Below, in pieces: positions 8,623 to 40,231 of a stretch of DNA of 64,000 nt. The stretch covers positions 108,579 through 172,578 of the forward strand of contig CACZJK010000003.1 in NCBI GenBank assembly GCA_902781465.1. The letters are read 5' to 3'. The translations under genes and the position numbers were made by a program. The stretch comes from an uncultured Pseudomonadota bacterium (GTDB taxonomy: Bacteria > Pseudomonadota > Alphaproteobacteria > Rs-D84). The notes under the pieces were generated by a model. The model had not been told where the DNA came from. It worked only from the letters and a program-made list of their open reading frames with translations, and searched no databases. Positions within the stretch are counted from its first letter, which is position 1, and every line of letters begins with the position of its first letter.

Positions 8623-8628
8623 TTTCGG

Positions 8629-8827
8629 TGAATCCAAGGGATTGGGTTCGGGGCTTTAGCAGGCCTATCTTGTACGGTGCGAAAGCATCGTAATTCTGGT
8701 GTTGTCGGTGTTTTTTGCACCGTTGTCATCCCTGACTATATATGGTCGGGGAGCCGTCGTACCGTAAGGCGATGGAATCAATTACAAGATGATTTGCTAA
8801 CTCCCCGACCGCCATTTTCTTGGCGGT
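8629..8827 (+). ncRNA. Structured 5' leader RNA, copy A
   Basis: This leader runs from the predicted start to just before the SD of the secreted-protein gene at 8856. Helices seen: 5' hairpin GAATCC/GGGTTC; closing helix Pa ATCTTGTA (8667-8674) with TACAAGAT (8783-8790); hairpins CGGTGC-GAAA-GCATCG and CGGTG/CACCG; switching hairpin CCCTGAC (8730-8736) with GTCGGGG (8745-8751); the alternative 10-bp pairing GGTCGGGGAG (8744-8753) with CTCCCCGACC (8801-8810); hairpin CCGTCG/CGATGG; 3' hairpin ACCGCCA/TGGCGGT (8808-8827) followed by a T-rich stretch. CTCCC (8801-8805) can also pair with the SD GGGAG (8846-8850). Copies B, C and D share this order with different sequences. Confidence 0.7.
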
Positions 8828-8855
8828 GTTTTGTTGAAAGAAAACGGGAGGAAGT

Positions 8856-9548
8856 ATGAAAAAGATTTTAATAACATTATTGATGCTGTTTTGTGGCACA
8901 GTATTTGCACAAACAGAAACATTAAATTGGTATATGGACGGCAACATTTATACAACCACACAATGCGAAAGTGGTACTGATATATTATTACCAACCACCC
9001 CAACCAAACGCGGATATACCTTTAAGGGCTGGGCAAGTTATACCCCGATTGAATACCTGAAATCGACAGGAACACAGTGGATAGATACGGGGATTAGATT
9101 ATCTAGCAACATAAAGTTTTACACCACCGTAGCACCCAGTGTATCTAATATATGCAGTTTTAAGAGTGGTGATCATTGCCTTGTTATATGGCAAGATAGT
9201 CGCATTATTACTTTCAGACCCGGAATTCCAGAGGTATCATCTGGTGTGCCTTATTCGGTTGGTACTTTTTATAACATTGGGTTTAATATTGATAAAAGAT
9301 TATTTATTGTCAATAACAGAGAGATTCTTTTTTCACAAACTATCCCTAATTTAAATTCAGTAATAATTACAGGTACTACAGATAAAATAAAACTATTACA
9401 AATCTGGGATAACGACGTCCTTGTTCGTGATTTTATCCCTGTTCTTGATCCGTACGGTGTTCCATGTATGTATGACAAAGTAGAAAAGAAATTCTATTAC
9501 AACGCCGGTACAGGTCAATTTATCGCCGGACCAGTGTTAAATGAGTGA
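8856..9548 (+). CDS. Secreted protein with InlB-type repeat and LamG-like domain
   Basis: The 230-aa product has a signal peptide (MKKILITLLMLFCGTVFA) and one Flg_new/InlB-B-type beta repeat (LPTTPTKRGYTFKGW, about 44-58). The rest resembles concanavalin/LamG-like domains in gut-bacterial surface proteins (IEYLKSTGTQWIDTGI; ending DKVEKKFYYNAGTGQFIAGPV). It is paralogous to the protein at 39300-40073 and is likely periplasmic or surface exposed; ligand unknown. Start chosen for the signal peptide and the SD GGGAGG 4 nt upstream. Expression is expected to be controlled by leader A. Confidence 0.8.
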   Translation: MKKILITLLMLFCGTVFAQTETLNWYMDGNIYTTTQCESGTDILLPTTPTKRGYTFKGWASYTPIEYLKSTGTQWIDTGIRLSSNIKFYTTVAPSVSNICSFKSGDHCLVIWQDSRIITFRPGIPEVSSGVPYSVGTFYNIGFNIDKRLFIVNNREILFSQTIPNLNSVIITGTTDKIKLLQIWDNDVLVRDFIPVLDPYGVPCMYDKVEKKFYYNAGTGQFIAGPVLNE

Positions 9549-27235: not shown

Positions 27236-27952
27236 TCAACAATTATGTTTTAGTTTTTCGTATTCTTTGCGTATAATTTGGTCAATGTCAGACTTTCGCA
27301 GTTTACTGGAAAATCGCGTGCAATTGATGAATTCTGTTTCCAGATAATCCCATCCTGCATATTCCCAATCGATTATGCCGATTATATTCATTGTTTTTGT
27401 GTCTACGATAATATTATTGCAAATATCATTATGGCCCCAACTGTCGCCTTTTGTTGTTATTAAATCGTCGATTTTGTCTGGAAAAGTATTGTGCATATCA
27501 TAGATAAACTTAGCAATTTGTTGTGCCCATTTTTCGCGGTGTTTCATAATTATATGTAAAGGAAAAGTATTAAGATTATGTCCAGGTATAAATTTGTATT
27601 TATAAAAAATATAACCATCAGATTCTATTATTTGTATATGTGGGATTTGCAAAGAAATATGATTACGAAACGCGTCAGTCATACGTTTTTCTTTGATAAT
27701 ATTTTGCGCATAATTTGAATCGAATCTTTTTTTGATTTTATAAACGAATTCATCGTTTATGATAAATCCTATGTTCCAGCCACCTTTTATCATTTTGATT
27801 TTTTTTATTTTTATATTGGAACACATATTGCGCAAAACATTTAATTTTTTTCGATAATCGTAAAGTTTATTGACACGAAAGTTTTGTCTTTTTTCTTTGT
27901 TGAATATAAAAAAGGACAAGGCATATCGCAAATCAAAAATAAGTTTCCACAT
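27236..27952 (-). CDS. Aminoglycoside/choline-kinase-type phosphotransferase
   Basis: The 238-aa protein has a kinase fold of the APH/choline-kinase type: a Lys-bearing N-lobe (FVYKIKKRF), the catalytic loop WGHNDICNNIIVD (Asp and Asn of the HxDxxxxN motif) and a metal-binding IDWEYAGWDYLETEF. It phosphorylates a small hydroxylated molecule, such as a sugar, choline or LPS precursor; which one is unknown. Its start directly follows leader element D, whose 3' hairpin is a strong terminator, so expression is probably attenuated. Confidence 0.75.
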   Translation of the reverse strand: MWKLIFDLRYALSFFIFNKEKRQNFRVNKLYDYRKKLNVLRNMCSNIKIKKIKMIKGGWNIGFIINDEFVYKIKKRFDSNYAQNIIKEKRMTDAFRNHISLQIPHIQIIESDGYIFYKYKFIPGHNLNTFPLHIIMKHREKWAQQIAKFIYDMHNTFPDKIDDLITTKGDSWGHNDICNNIIVDTKTMNIIGIIDWEYAGWDYLETEFINCTRFSSKLRKSDIDQIIRKEYEKLKHNC

Positions 27953-27978: not shown

Positions 27979-28158
27979 AAAAAAACCTCCAATTTGATTT
28001 GGAGGCAGGAGGTTGATTGCTATTATCGTTAGTAAATAGTGTGTGGTATTGAATATTCCCACACCCTCCTGCCATGAAAAAAGACAGGAGATGTTTTACA
28101 TCTTCGCGGATGCTAACGATCAAGAGGCAATCACACCCCGGCACAGAAACCCTCTGTG
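27979..28158 (-). ncRNA. Structured 5' leader RNA, copy D (with terminator)
   Basis: Minus strand, 5' to 3': 5' hairpin CACAGA/TCTGTG (28158-28142); Pa ATCGTTAG (28120-28113) with CTAACGAT (28032-28025); switching hairpin CTCCTG (28090-28085) with CAGGAG (28071-28066); hairpin GTGTGG/CCACAC (28064-28041); the alternative pairing GGCAGGAGG (28073-28065) with CCTCCTGCC (28012-28004); then hairpin CCTCCAA/TTGGAGG (28005-27986) followed by seven T. The last is a Rho-independent terminator whose first two bases overlap the alternative helix, so the two cannot fully form together. Confidence 0.72.
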
Positions 28159-28167
28159 TTATGAATA

Positions 28168-30470: not shown

Positions 30471-30500
30471 TTGCATTGAATAAAACATATTTGCTATGAT
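30471..30500 (+). promoter_or_regulatory. Promoter of leader element B and the surface-protein/DGR operon
   Basis: TTGCAT (30471-30476), 18-nt spacer, TATGAT (30495-30500). Predicted start is near 30507, where a strong hairpin begins the leader. Confidence 0.6.
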
Positions 30501-30506
30501 ATTTTT

Positions 30507-30678
30507 GTCAGCAAGAGTTTGCTGATGGGGTGTCGAAACCCGAAATGAAGAGCGTCAATGGTGTATTGACGAAGAACTCCAACCGAACGGGGGTTGGAGG
30601 GTCGCTTGAATATATTGAATAAAGCGCACAATTTCTCTTCAAATTGTTTCGAACCTCCAACCGCCAAAATTGGTGGTT
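30507..30678 (+). ncRNA. Structured 5' leader RNA, copy B
   Basis: 5' hairpin TCAGCAA/TTTGCTGA (30508-30525); Pa TGAAGAG (30546-30552) with CTCTTCA (30635-30641); hairpin CGTCAAT/ATTGACG (30553-30571); switching hairpin CTCCAACC (30577-30584) with GGTTGGAG (30592-30599); hairpin CGCTT/AAGCG (30603-30626); the alternative pairing GGTTGGAGG (30592-30600) with CCTCCAACC (30654-30662); 3' hairpin AACCGCCA/TGGTGGTT (30659-30678) ending in TTTT. Helix order equals copies A, C and D. Confidence 0.7.
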
Positions 30679-30711
30679 TTGAAAGGAAAAGAGAAACGAA
30701 GGAAGCGTTCG

Positions 30712-31500
30712 ATGCAATCAAAATATTTTGCATCCATTTTGGGGGGATTTTTCATATTTTGTAATGCTGCATTTGGTGCGGCATCTTGCCCAGACGGTTT
30801 TTCAAAAATAGATTATGTTAATGCGGGAACATTTATGGCGCCAAATGACGGTGTATGTCAAATTGGTGGGTATTCATTGATTGTGATACCTGATGAATTC
30901 AGTCCTATTTATAACGGTTTTACATTGGGGTCGGAAACAAGTCTTTGTGATAACGGACAACCGTCGGGAAACAATTGTAATACATTTACCCAGGGTTCTT
31001 GTGCGGACGATAATTATAATACGTTGTCTAATTCTGCGACATTTATGGCACCGGTTGACGGTATATGTCAGGTTGGGGGCTATTCAATCAAAGAAATTCC
31101 AGAAGATTTAACACCGGTATATAACGGATTCACATTGGGGGCAGAGGTTGCACTTTGTGACAATGGTCATTGGTCTGGGAATACGTGTGTTTCGAATACG
31201 GCGGGTGATTGCATTGAAAATTATTATGATTTGGGAATAAATGCGAACACATTTGCAGAATTAACGAACGGAAATTGTTCGAATCCGTATGCTAAATTCA
31301 CAGGAACGACGCGTTGCGACCGAAATCCAGGCGACACATGCGTTGATTTGCCGACGCCACAATATACATTGACATGGGATGACAAGGTTAATGAACCGAC
31401 AACATCGACCTGTTATTACGAAGAACAGATTGTTTTACCACCAACACCGGTCCGACCAGGATATATATTTGGTGGATGGAAAGTTAAAACGAATAATTAA
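30712..31500 (+). CDS. Secreted cysteine-rich repeat protein with InlB-type repeat
   Basis: From the ATG at 30712 (AAGGAAG upstream) the 262-aa product has a signal peptide (FASILGGFFIFCNAAFGAA). Two internal repeats of about 75 residues follow (each with TFMAPxDGxCQxGGYS and YNGFTLGxExxLCDNG), then a third partial one and a C-terminal InlB-B/Flg_new unit (PTPVRPGYIFGGWKVK). It is the first gene after leader B and probably co-transcribed with 31517 and 32197. Function unknown, likely surface exposed. Confidence 0.75.
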   Translation: MQSKYFASILGGFFIFCNAAFGAASCPDGFSKIDYVNAGTFMAPNDGVCQIGGYSLIVIPDEFSPIYNGFTLGSETSLCDNGQPSGNNCNTFTQGSCADDNYNTLSNSATFMAPVDGICQVGGYSIKEIPEDLTPVYNGFTLGAEVALCDNGHWSGNTCVSNTAGDCIENYYDLGINANTFAELTNGNCSNPYAKFTGTTRCDRNPGDTCVDLPTPQYTLTWDDKVNEPTTSTCYYEEQIVLPPTPVRPGYIFGGWKVKTNN

Positions 31501-32196: not shown

Positions 32197-32715
32197 ATGA
32201 AAAAGGTAATGGCAATATTGATGATGGTGATGACGGTCCCGGCATTTGCGACGACAATGTGCGCGGTGGACGATTCTGTCGCGGTTGTATTGGACCCAAC
32301 CATTGGTGGTTCTGGATATACCTATGATAACACCGCGGGAACGTGGAAAACGACGTTTTCATACGGCTATGTATCGGGTATCAGTGCGTGCCTGAACAGC
32401 AATAAAGGCAAAGGAATGGGCGGTTGGGTTGCTAATTTGACCGATGTTAACCCGGACGGCGAAGAAAAAACCGTTGTAGGTTCTGAAAAATATGGTCGTT
32501 ATTGTTGGTGCAAGGCTACACATCCCGTGGCTTCGCGTTGGGTGTTCAACTACGACAACGGGTCCGCGTCCTTTGCGCTTCGAATTGCACGGACTACTGT
32601 GGCTACTTCGTCCGGGACTCCGAAGCGATGCGCGTGGGGTTGTTTGGCTCGGTTTCGCAATGATGTGCCCGCAAAGTGTCGTGGGGCGGAAAGACGTGGC
32701 ACGAAAGTGGCGTGA
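32197..32715 (+). CDS. DGR target protein, frameshifted within the variable repeat
   Basis: The product has a signal peptide (MKKVMAILMMVMTVPAFA) and YCWCKATHPVASRWVFNYDN up to the variable repeat (VR 32523-32658). The template repeat reads on as ...GSASNCASNCTNNCGNN, but the VR lacks one base after GSAS, so translation shifts frame and runs out to 32715. Restoring the base gives CASNCTDYCGYFVRDSEAMR and a stop at 32661-32663 directly after the VR, matching the end of the paralog at 31517. It is either a mutant made by error-prone retrohoming, a phase-off state, or an assembly error. Confidence 0.8.
   Translation: MKKVMAILMMVMTVPAFATTMCAVDDSVAVVLDPTIGGSGYTYDNTAGTWKTTFSYGYVSGISACLNSNKGKGMGGWVANLTDVNPDGEEKTVVGSEKYGRYCWCKATHPVASRWVFNYDNGSASFALRIARTTVATSSGTPKRCAWGCLARFRNDVPAKCRGAERRGTKVA
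32523..32658 (+). repeat. DGR variable repeat (VR)
   Basis: 136 bp, colinear with the 137-bp template repeat at 33152-33288. All 11 substitutions and the single 1-nt deletion fall at template adenines, mostly in AAC or AAT codons (AAC to TAC, GAC, TTC, TCC; CAG to CGG). The 3' end is an invariant GC-rich stretch ending GGTTTCGC, the expected homing-initiation end. Confidence 0.93.
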
Positions 32716-33151: not shown

Positions 33152-33288
33152 TCCCGTGGCTTCGCGTTGGGTGTTCAACAACGACAACGGGTCCGCGTCC
33201 AATTGCGCTTCGAATTGCACGAACAACTGTGGCAACAACGTCCAGAACAACGAAGCGATGCGCGTGGGGTTGTTTGGCTCGGTTTCGC
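33152..33288 (+). repeat. DGR template repeat (TR)
   Basis: 137 bp, the donor for the VR. It contains many AAC/AAT codons in the target frame (NNDN, SNCASNCTNNCGNNVQNN), which is how DGRs place mutable adenines. It is 494 bp downstream of the VR and about 600 bp upstream of the reverse transcriptase. Downstream, to 33550, lie hairpins (AAAGTGTTTTAACACTTT; GGATATC...GATATCC) that may belong to the template RNA. Confidence 0.93.
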
Positions 33289-33893: not shown

Positions 33894-34922
33894 ATGAAAA
33901 CATATAAACATCTTTGGGAAAAGTTTATTTCACCTGAAAATTTCGATTTGGCTGCGCGCAAGGCTATTCGCAGTAAAAAATCAAAGCGGTCTGTGAAAAA
34001 ATTCTTGGCCCATCGTGAAGAGTATCTTGAAAAATTGCGCCACGATTTAATTATGGGGACTTACAAGACTTCGCCGTATAAAACTTTTACTATTTTCGAA
34101 CCAAAAAAACGTATTATTTACAAATTGCCTCTTTACCCAGACCATGTTTTACACCATGCCTTGATAAATATTTTGGGGCCTATTTGGCGAAATTCTTTTA
34201 TAAATGATTCTTATGCTTGTATCCCTGGGCGCGGTTTGTTGGGCGCATCACAACGAACTATGCGTTTTATGAAACGAAATAAATATGTCTTGCAATGTGA
34301 TATAAGGAAATTTTTCCCGTCTATCAATCACACGGTTATGATGGATGTTTTACAGCACAAGATTCACGACCGTCGTTTATTGCGTGTCTTGGACGAAATT
34401 GTTTGGTCTGTGGGCGGCGATACTAATTTGCCAATTGGTAATTTAACCAGTCAATGGATGGGTAATGTTTATCTGAATGAACTGGACCATTTTGTAAAGG
34501 AAAAGTTGCGCTGGCGCGATTATATTCGATATTGTGATGATTTCTGTTTGTATGGAAATGATAAATCAGAACTGCATCGCGCCGCCAAAGAAATCGAAAA
34601 TTTTATTCATGAAAAACTGAATATGGTTTTTTCAAAAGCAGTTGTGCGCAGAACACGCGATGGGGTTTCTTTTATCGGGTATCGACATTTCAAAGATTTT
34701 ATTCTTATTCGAAAAAAGACTTCTTTCCGTTTAAAGAAAAGAATCCTTAATATCGCAAAACATCACGATTTTAATTCTAAATCAATCGGACAATTGGCCG
34801 CCGCCTTTGGTTGGACAAAATGGTGCAACTGTTATCATTATAAACAAGATATCTATCGCCAGAGTATTAAATATGGTGCCGGCGCGTTTATGAAAAAGAA
34901 TTTCATAGATTTGGGAAACTAG
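33894..34922 (+). CDS. Diversity-generating retroelement reverse transcriptase
   Basis: The 342-aa RT has the motifs YVLQCDIRKFFPSI (catalytic Asp about 136), the DGR-type LPIGNLTSQWMGNVYLNELD (IGxxxSQ instead of the QGxxxSP of retroviral and intron RTs, 181-187) and IRYCDDFCLYG (YCDD active site, 213-216). No maturase or endonuclease domain follows. It copies the TR transcript with errors at adenines and replaces the VR. Its stop overlaps the end of the convergent virB11 gene by 4 nt. Confidence 0.94.
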   Translation: MKTYKHLWEKFISPENFDLAARKAIRSKKSKRSVKKFLAHREEYLEKLRHDLIMGTYKTSPYKTFTIFEPKKRIIYKLPLYPDHVLHHALINILGPIWRNSFINDSYACIPGRGLLGASQRTMRFMKRNKYVLQCDIRKFFPSINHTVMMDVLQHKIHDRRLLRVLDEIVWSVGGDTNLPIGNLTSQWMGNVYLNELDHFVKEKLRWRDYIRYCDDFCLYGNDKSELHRAAKEIENFIHEKLNMVFSKAVVRRTRDGVSFIGYRHFKDFILIRKKTSFRLKKRILNIAKHHDFNSKSIGQLAAAFGWTKWCNCYHYKQDIYRQSIKYGAGAFMKKNFIDLGN

Positions 34923-39299: not shown

Positions 39300-40073
39300 C
39301 TATTCCTCAATAACAGGCCCCGCGATGAAATCACCAGTCCCAGCATTGTAATAAAATTTACCTTCCACTTTGTCATACAAGCACGGTGTGCCGTTTTTAT
39401 CAAGGACCGGGATAAAATCACGGACAAGAGTGTCGTTGTTGTAGATTTTGCAGGAATAGATAGATTTTGTTTTGTAAAGACTAACACTTCCGCCATTATT
39501 TAAAGCACTCAAATACAAATTATAATTAGAAGAAAATGTTCTTTCTGCTGATGTATTAGTTGCCAACGTGTCACCTGTATCAAAATCTATGATTTCAGTT
39601 ACATTTTTATTTTTATCAACTGTTAATTTTTTATTATAAATACGATTTGTTATATTATTTCTTTGGTCATTATAATCAGTTTGAATAACTGCTGGAGCAT
39701 TATCATAAAAAACTCCAAAAGAAGACACACCTATGGAGTTTCTTGAACCAAATAACCACCCAATATCATCATTGCCAGATTGTTTCAAATACGTCATTAT
39801 TACGCGTGTATCTTGATTTGGTTTAAAACCTGTATCTATCCATTGAGTTCCTGTGGATTCTAAATATTCGATTCGGACATATGGTAATTGTTCCCAACCG
39901 ATAAAGTCATATCCATATTTAGTTGGGGGTGTTGGTAATATTATATCACTGCCGGTGGTGCAAGATGTTTGTATTGGTGTGTTATCTTCGATATACCAAT
40001 ATTGATTAAATGTTGCACCGTAACACACAACACACACAAATAATGTGATTATAAATAATGCGATTCGTTTCAT
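39300..40073 (-). CDS. Secreted protein with InlB-type repeat and LamG-like domain, copy 2
   Basis: The start at 40073 (SD GGAGG, 6-nt spacing) gives a 257-aa product with signal peptide (MKRIALFIITLFVCVVCYG), an InlB-B unit (LPTPPTKYGYDFIGW) and a LamG-like body (IEYLESTGTQWIDTGF...VEGKFYYNAGTGDFIAGPV). It is a longer paralog of 8856-9548. Leader element C ends at its SD. A start at 40178 would read through the leader and is rejected. Confidence 0.8.
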   Translation of the reverse strand: MKRIALFIITLFVCVVCYGATFNQYWYIEDNTPIQTSCTTGSDIILPTPPTKYGYDFIGWEQLPYVRIEYLESTGTQWIDTGFKPNQDTRVIMTYLKQSGNDDIGWLFGSRNSIGVSSFGVFYDNAPAVIQTDYNDQRNNITNRIYNKKLTVDKNKNVTEIIDFDTGDTLATNTSAERTFSSNYNLYLSALNNGGSVSLYKTKSIYSCKIYNNDTLVRDFIPVLDKNGTPCLYDKVEGKFYYNAGTGDFIAGPVIEE

Positions 40074-40079
40074 ATTTTT

Positions 40080-40231
40080 CCTCCAACTTTTCATAAACGA
40101 AATAACCGCCAGAAAATTGGGCGGTTGGAGGTTAACGACTATATTCTGAGAAATAGTGGGTTTATTTATGTATATCACCGCCCTCCAACCAAAGTTGGAG
40201 CTTTTTATGTCATCATGGACACTCAGAATCT
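40080..40231 (-). ncRNA. Structured 5' leader RNA, copy C (overlaps the SD)
   Basis: Minus strand, 5' to 3': Pa ATTCTGAG (40229-40222) with CTCAGAAT (40150-40143); switching hairpin CTCCAAC (40200-40194) with GTTGGAG (40189-40183); the alternative pairing GGTTGGAGG (40190-40182) with CCTCCAACC (40131-40123); 3' hairpin AACCGCC/GGCGGTT (40126-40104). The SD of the downstream gene is GTTGGAGG (40087-40080), exactly complementary to CCTCCAAC (40131-40124). The downstream repeat can therefore pair with either the hairpin arm or the SD. The 5' extension seen in A, B and D is missing. Confidence 0.72.

Follow-up and report, generated by a model that had tools for sequence, protein, structure and literature searches.

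Antisense RNAs of the C4 type are known from phages P1 and P7, in which C4 is processed by RNase P and binds its target around the ribosome site (PMC5320573; PMC12197685; PMC2864571), and GG has been described as the RNase P motif of these RNAs (PMC5320573). IsrK (RF01394) of the Salmonella prophage Gifsy-1 overlaps the a1/b1 region of C4 and assumes mutually exclusive structures, as demonstrated by mutation (PMC4825925). The Group 1 C4-like sRNAs of Acinetobacter baumannii have many chromosomal copies with a variable a' loop, and are reported as processed sRNAs (PMC5320573). sRNA-Xcc1 (RF02221) is known as an 88-nt RNA (PMC2996969) and in Xanthomonas cassettes lies upstream of symE (PMC12444791). 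No paper joining sRNA-Xcc1 and C4 was found in the literature, and in Rfam RF02221 has no clan, C4 and c4-a1b1 being placed together in CL00128.

The window, the whole stretch of 64,000 nucleotides analysed here, comes from an alphaproteobacterial genome of 898,703 bp in 11 contigs, within the order Rs-D84 to which Candidatus Enterousia, a reduced-genome gut lineage that is probably partner-dependent, also belongs (PMC12306168). Four copies of a structured leader RNA lie in it, with a part order the same as that of C4, and we consider it probable that a C4-type antisense RNA has here been built into the leader as a cis-acting transcription attenuator, which in most cases precedes a gene for a secreted protein.

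Nested helices and an alternative pairing

The sequence-only reading of the window had described four copies, A to D, of a leader with a switching hairpin, and their helices and sequences are found where it placed them, by inspection of the window sequence and by folding (Table 1). The covariance model R1, trained on 16 copies elsewhere in the same genome with the window copies excluded, scores B at 122.4 bits, D at 82.2, C at 81.9 and A, the weakest, at 26.3, and the next-best match in the window has an E-value of 0.03. Folding z-scores against shuffled sequences are -7.6 for A, -6.2 for B, -2.4 for C and -5.9 for D. In copy C the H1 helix is unrecognisable, and neither P0 nor the bipartite address was found.

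Table 1. Positions in the window of the four leader RNA copies, their parts and the genes behind them
Feature	Position	Strand	Remarks
Copy A, whole RNA	8627..8833	+	R1 match 8644-8813, E 1.3e-5
Copy A, 5' half	H1 8630-8649; H2 5' arm 8650-8653; b1 8656-8661; a1 8667-8674	+	b1 is the 5' strand of P0, a1 that of Pa/P1
Copy A, middle	P2 domain to ~8725; P3' 8744-8753; P4 8754-8775	+	P3' is the 5' strand of the closing stem
Copy A, 3' part	a' 8783-8790; b' 8794-8800	+	a' (P1 3' strand) in H5 loop; b' is the P0 3' strand
Copy A, end	R 8801-8810; terminator 8808-8833	+	R is the 3' repeat
Gene after copy A	8856..9548	+	Secreted protein, Pfam PF09479 Flg_new (List_Bact_rpt)
-10-like box of copy B	30495..30500	+	TATGAT, immediately 5' of copy B; from sequence
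Copy B, whole RNA	30507..30681	+	R1 match 30507-30665, E 6.9e-32
Copy B, 5' half	H1 30507-30526; H2 30527-30541; b1 30533-30539; a1 30546-30552; P2 30553-30571	+	
Copy B, middle	P3 5' arm 30577-30584; P3' 30592-30600; P4 30601-30629	+	
Copy B, 3' part	a' 30635-30641; b' 30646-30652; R 30654-30662; terminator 30660-30681	+	
Gene after copy B	30712..31500	+	Secreted protein, weak Flg_new domain; ORF 30670-31500, later ATG taken
Copy C	40101..40231	-	R1 match, E 7.9e-21
Copy C, parts	a1 40229-40222; P3 5' arm 40200-40194; P3' 40190-40182; a' 40150-40143; R 40131-40123; terminator to ~40101	-	
Gene after copy C	39300..40073	-	Secreted protein, weak Flg_new
Copy D	27979..28160	-	R1 match 28001-28160, E 6.7e-21
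Copy D, parts	a1 28120-28113; P3' 28073-28065; a' 28032-28025; R 28012-28004; terminator to 27979	-	
Gene after copy D	27236..27952	-	Phosphotransferase, Pfam APH PF01636 (8.1e-9), weak choline kinase

From the 5' end the elements run in the order -10-like box, H1, H2 (with b1 as its loop), a1, P2, P3, P4, H5, b', R and terminator. Those added to the earlier description are H1, H2, the pairing of the H2 loop with b', the strand preceding the 3' repeat (helix P0), H5 and the terminator. P1, the Pa of the earlier description, joins a1 to a'; the P2 hairpin is optional and absent in some lineages, P3 is the switching hairpin, and P4 contains a conserved GAAUA/GAAUAA internal loop. The H2 stem occurs as AGG/CCU, GGG/CCC or UGG/CCA and that of H5 as CAAUU/AAUUG or CUAUU/AAUAG, the H5 loop being a', the 3' strand of Pa, and the 5' end of the intrinsic terminator lies inside the 3' repeat R.

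Alignments of 16, 26 and 98 copies were used. In the largest, 97.8% of cells in the nested structure are paired and 35 of 42 pairs have double compensatory changes, counts that relatedness inflates, yet the exchanges recur across many lineages. The covariation score is 0.698 as against 0.183 when shuffled and at most 0.083 with partners slid. H2, H5 and P3':R were absent from the structure fitted to the alignment, and the pair counts of the other helices depend on that fit. H5 covaries at one pair (A-U 62, U-A 29) and H2 at two, with U-A and C-G exchanges in few copies. An outer extension of P0, GAGG with CCUC, was dismissed, as its variation is almost solely one-sided, whereas H2 exchanges pairs. 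Pairing of b1 with b' and of a1 with a' is shown by the covariation in these alignments, and across the 98 copies the claim holds that these leaders form a family of structured cis elements whose helices covary.

The alternative pairing that had been proposed, of the 3' arm of the switching hairpin (P3') with the downstream repeat R, is likewise conserved, its nine pairs being paired in 96% of cells with a score of 0.225 as against 0.094. The outermost pair of P3':R lies outside the P3 hairpin and covaries in its own right (G-C 70, U-A 15, U-G 6, A-U 4 among 98 copies). Three strands, the 5' arm of P3, P3' and R, vary together in the sets CTCCAAC/GGTTGGAG/CCTCCAACC, CTCCTGA/TCAGGAG/CCTCCTGAC and CTCCTGC/GGCAGGAG/CTCCTGCC, and more distant lineages add the versions GGCAGGAAG/CTTCCTGCC and GGCGAGAGG/CCTCTCGCC. 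Because the pattern scan of genomes presets the letters of P3' and R, its loci were left out as evidence for this helix, which was drawn from alignment A7 instead. Covariation among the aligned copies shows two alternative partners for P3', its own 5' arm and R. Two mutually exclusive helices maintained by compensatory change are the hallmark of a switch, and we infer from them that switching occurs.

In 92 of 98 copies (8.5 expected) and in 99 of 113 (8.0 expected) a hairpin with a T-run begins in the final bases of R, so that of the mutually exclusive conserved helices P3 and P3':R one touches the expression platform, as in riboswitches. In other families some copies, such as L100, L107 and L114, have no clear terminator and have R beside a complementary ribosome site, and so the output is not uniform across copies. 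With pseudoknots left out, the terminator state lies 3-14 kcal/mol below the closing-stem state; when the core is folded alone, the closing stem forms and the base of the terminator is lost.

Spread of the leader and the genes behind it

R1 finds 43 copies in the source genome, and adding copy A and the loci L381 and L382, which came from the Rfam search, brings the number to about 46; the motif CCTCCAACCGCC occurs there exactly 33 times, as against none for the reversed control. Further homologs ahead of similar genes had been predicted, and they were found in same-genus genomes and other Alphaproteobacteria. Of 34 same-genus genomes, 33 contain matches to R1 (34 of 35 counting the source), at up to 44 copies each, and matches also occur in six genomes from two other families of the same order. 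A broader model adds 13 genomes of 0.9-2.1 Mb from other families of the class, with 1-6 copies; all these genomes are metagenome assemblies in fragmented contigs, and the model E-values are rough. Among 299 genomes sampled across the phylum model R2 had matches in only two, both of the same genus. The full-length form is thus undetected outside the Alphaproteobacteria with R2 and its filter, though RF02221 cores are common. Public records with the motif are labelled Candidatus Enterousia, uncultured gut Alphaproteobacteria or 'Rickettsiales', and one RNA sequence is common to a same-genus genome and Ca. Enterousia excrementavium. Tandem copies exist, some with their own terminators (three at L217, two each at L185 and L303).

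Six leader copies (L013, L020, L029, L037, L038 and L039), several of them at contig ends of the source genome, run into a shared repeat beginning ccgttctggctgttcttggaacgacgcaaggttctccccttgttggggg, the probable cause of the breaks in the assembly. The P3'/R motif is also contained in three viral contigs (L328, L329 and L330), and phages may therefore carry such an RNA.

The downstream genes in the window are, as had been read from the sequence, three secreted-protein loci and one kinase-like gene, with Pfam Flg_new and APH domains, and the gene behind copy C has a ribosome site, GTTGGAGG, complementary to R. The open reading frame mostly starts 37-62 nt past the end of the RNA (187 cases). Among 158 distinct ORFs having a ribosome site within 70 nt, 103 encode signal-peptide-like proteins, as called with a simple hydrophobicity rule. 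Nearly all downstream genes in the source genome encode secreted proteins, often of the List_Bact_rpt type, the APH-type kinase of copy D being among the exceptions, and in other genomes small HTH proteins and glycosyltransferases are found as well. The phage or prophage antirepressor context of C4 was not seen among these secreted-protein, HTH, glycosyltransferase and APH genes.

Elsewhere in the window a likely diversity-generating retroelement comprises a reverse transcriptase (33894-34922; RVT_1, 3.1e-12), a template repeat (33152-33288) and, within a secreted protein gene, its variable copy (32523-32658), the two differing at many template adenines. Related repeats are present in other secreted-protein loci of the genome, and at one locus (L031) such a repeat apparently lies at the end of the gene downstream of a leader RNA. 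Capsid, portal, terminase and tail-like ORFs between about 42100 and 54400 suggest a prophage or a remnant of one.

Kinship with sRNA-Xcc1 and C4

Rfam at its gathering cut-offs returned only tRNAs over the window, and a permissive scan of one typical copy gave no sensible family. These empty scans at first suggested an unknown family, and the link to RF02221 was seen only through a distant relative, a locus of another alphaproteobacterium (L324) that matches RF02221 from P3' through R at 56.2 bits, above cut-off. In the source genome the best RF02221 match reaches 43.8 bits (E 6e-7), below the curated cut-off of 53 bits, and the search finds ten places, among them seven known copies and two copies confirmed with R2; RF01695 has no match there up to E 10. 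The order of RF02221 elements (closing stem, internal-loop hairpin, second hairpin, unpaired strand, closing stem) is matched, and the Rfam model covers what in the leader are P3', P4, H5, b' and R. The comparison with Rfam, proposed earlier as a test of novelty, has thus come out in part as a match to a named family, and the claim of a 'new family' is not supported in the form given: the 3' half is the integron and prophage RNA sRNA-Xcc1 (RF02221), and the a1/b1-plus-core architecture is that of C4.

The RF02221 cores, present in 55 of 398 Pseudomonadota genomes, turn out to have upstream a1/b1 strands as well, outside the 87-nt Rfam model: a bipartite sequence complementary to b'/a' precedes 28 of 30 cores (9% in permuted controls). 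In 18 of 30 loci the gene that follows carries a second copy of this sequence at its ribosome site (controls 7%), and in 23 of 30 a terminator lies between a1/b1 and core, both of which set sRNA-Xcc1 apart from the leader, as do the absence of a terminator overlapping R (0 of 30) and of a clear P3 arm, a P3-like 5' arm being found in 11 of 30, little above chance. The placing of sRNA-Xcc1 ahead of symE fits the predicted layout of address, core and target. By eye, genes after four sRNA-Xcc1 cores (L332, L337, L338 and L340) resemble phage antirepressor or BRO-type proteins at their start, which would be in keeping with a relation to C4; just 5' of another RF02221 locus (L345) is a CRISPR array with CRISPR-DR4 repeats.

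With C4 (phages P1/P7 and prophages; RF01695, c4-a1b1 RF03163) the leader has in common the order a1/b1, closing stem, hairpin, hairpin with a' loop, unpaired b' and closing stem. The closing stem of leader copies starts with GG, the RNase P motif of C4 RNAs (PMC5320573). The upstream bipartite address is present in 94 of 98 copies of this genus (control 7) and in 20 of 20 from other Alphaproteobacteria; controls across the sets match at about 7-9%. These addresses are private, as 38 of 40 copies in the source genome match their own core and cross matches number 15 of 1,560. What differs is the target: upstream and downstream address copies are both found in 19 of 20 C4 loci, whereas the leader has lost the a2/b2 copy that nearly all C4 loci carry downstream, at the ribosome site (13 of 98 in this genus, control 6, and 0 of 20 in the class outside the order). 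A few leader copies do match their own ribosome site above chance, B and C3:74768 best. A terminator between address and core, found in 15 of 20 C4 loci, is near background in the leader (22 of 98, 15 expected), in contrast also to IsrK, a short terminated RNA that turns translation on in trans. The terminator overlapping the closing stem, in 92 of 98 leader copies, is found in 0 of 20 C4 loci, and a P3 5' arm competing for the closing stem over at least 7 bp is seen in 88 of 94 leader copies but in 3 of 20 C4 loci, near chance. The context too is that of secreted proteins and not of phage antirepressors, and the Acinetobacter Group 1 RNAs, alike in their many copies and loop variation, are not reported as leaders with a terminator overlapping the closing stem (PMC5320573).

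A probable self-addressed attenuator and its rivals

By comparison of these parts the leader is a rebuilt relative of C4 and sRNA-Xcc1, a variant of a known RNA type and not wholly new, in which a transcription stop signal now takes the place of the target site, so that each copy appears to switch its own gene. With a1b1 on a'b' and P3 closed, R would be free, the terminator would form and the gene would be off; with the core closed, P3' on R, the base of the terminator would be lost and RNA polymerase could read into the gene. Since the core alone closes and loses the terminator base, pairing of a1b1 with a'b' should favour P3, the terminator and the off state, and its release read-through and the on state. 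Because folding without pseudoknots puts the terminator state 3-14 kcal/mol lower, the switch would depend on an active trigger. The balance might be tipped by the rate of folding, by RNase P cleavage at P3', by a protein or a cognate RNA, or by a small molecule. Such two-state behaviour would be analogous to that of IsrK.

The cis-acting switch proposed from the sequence stands as a cis leader with a conserved alternative helix, which does not require a ligand-binding riboswitch. Such a riboswitch, whose double-pseudoknot core and conserved P4 internal loop (GAAUA...GAAUAA) would bind a small molecule and control the terminator, could draw on the terminator platform, the several tandem copies, some with terminators of their own, and the conservation of unpaired P4 bases, but we think it quite unlikely, given that relatives with the same core are antisense RNAs, that a1/b1 is hypervariable, which is typical of addresses rather than of binding pockets, and that the downstream genes are of a surface or accessory kind without a metabolic theme. 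Action in trans seems doubtful, though a less distant prospect: RNase P would free the core, a'/b' would repress other mRNAs as in phage C4, and the terminator would mainly end the sRNA. The GG at the start of the closing stem, the RNase P motif of C4 RNAs (PMC5320573), and the existence of RF02221 as an 88-nt RNA (PMC2996969) speak for it; yet cross matches between copies are rare, a gene nearly always follows at a fixed distance, and bipartite matches at the ribosome sites of other genes in the window are in no clear excess once base composition is considered, for while they exceed those of reversed cores, much of this may reflect the higher A+T content of those stretches.

That the folds are very stable would also suit a passive role, in which a stable 5' cap together with a leaky terminator fixes a constant expression level without switching; we regard this as improbable because P3 and P3':R are both kept by coordinated changes and a passive structure needs neither. 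A spreading repeat element with incidental RNA features would account for the many copies and for those near contig ends beside long repeats, but it is hardly credible, being contradicted by the covariation: P0, P1, P2 and H1 differ between copies yet stay paired, where repeats would share primary sequence, and start codons follow at a fixed distance.

On the reading of the leader as an internalised C4-type attenuator, dozens of leaders in a reduced genome go back to a phage immunity RNA, put to new use after an exchange of target site and terminator. sRNA-Xcc1 has been investigated as an sRNA that stands alone, acts in trans and is linked to virulence and integrons; the comparison indicates that it is the 3' half of a larger C4-type switch, the first target of which is often the next gene. 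It is a tentative thought, with the balance of likelihood against it, that the genome holds some 46 self-antisense switches that descend from a phage immunity RNA, each with a private address, each turning one secreted or surface protein gene on or off, and possibly triggered by cognate RNAs or by RNase P; were this true, a gut symbiont would have an RNA-based system for selecting which surface proteins are displayed. The leader family in any case provides a way into the question of how gut Alphaproteobacteria that depend on a host, and whose regulation is little described, may control large families of secreted proteins.
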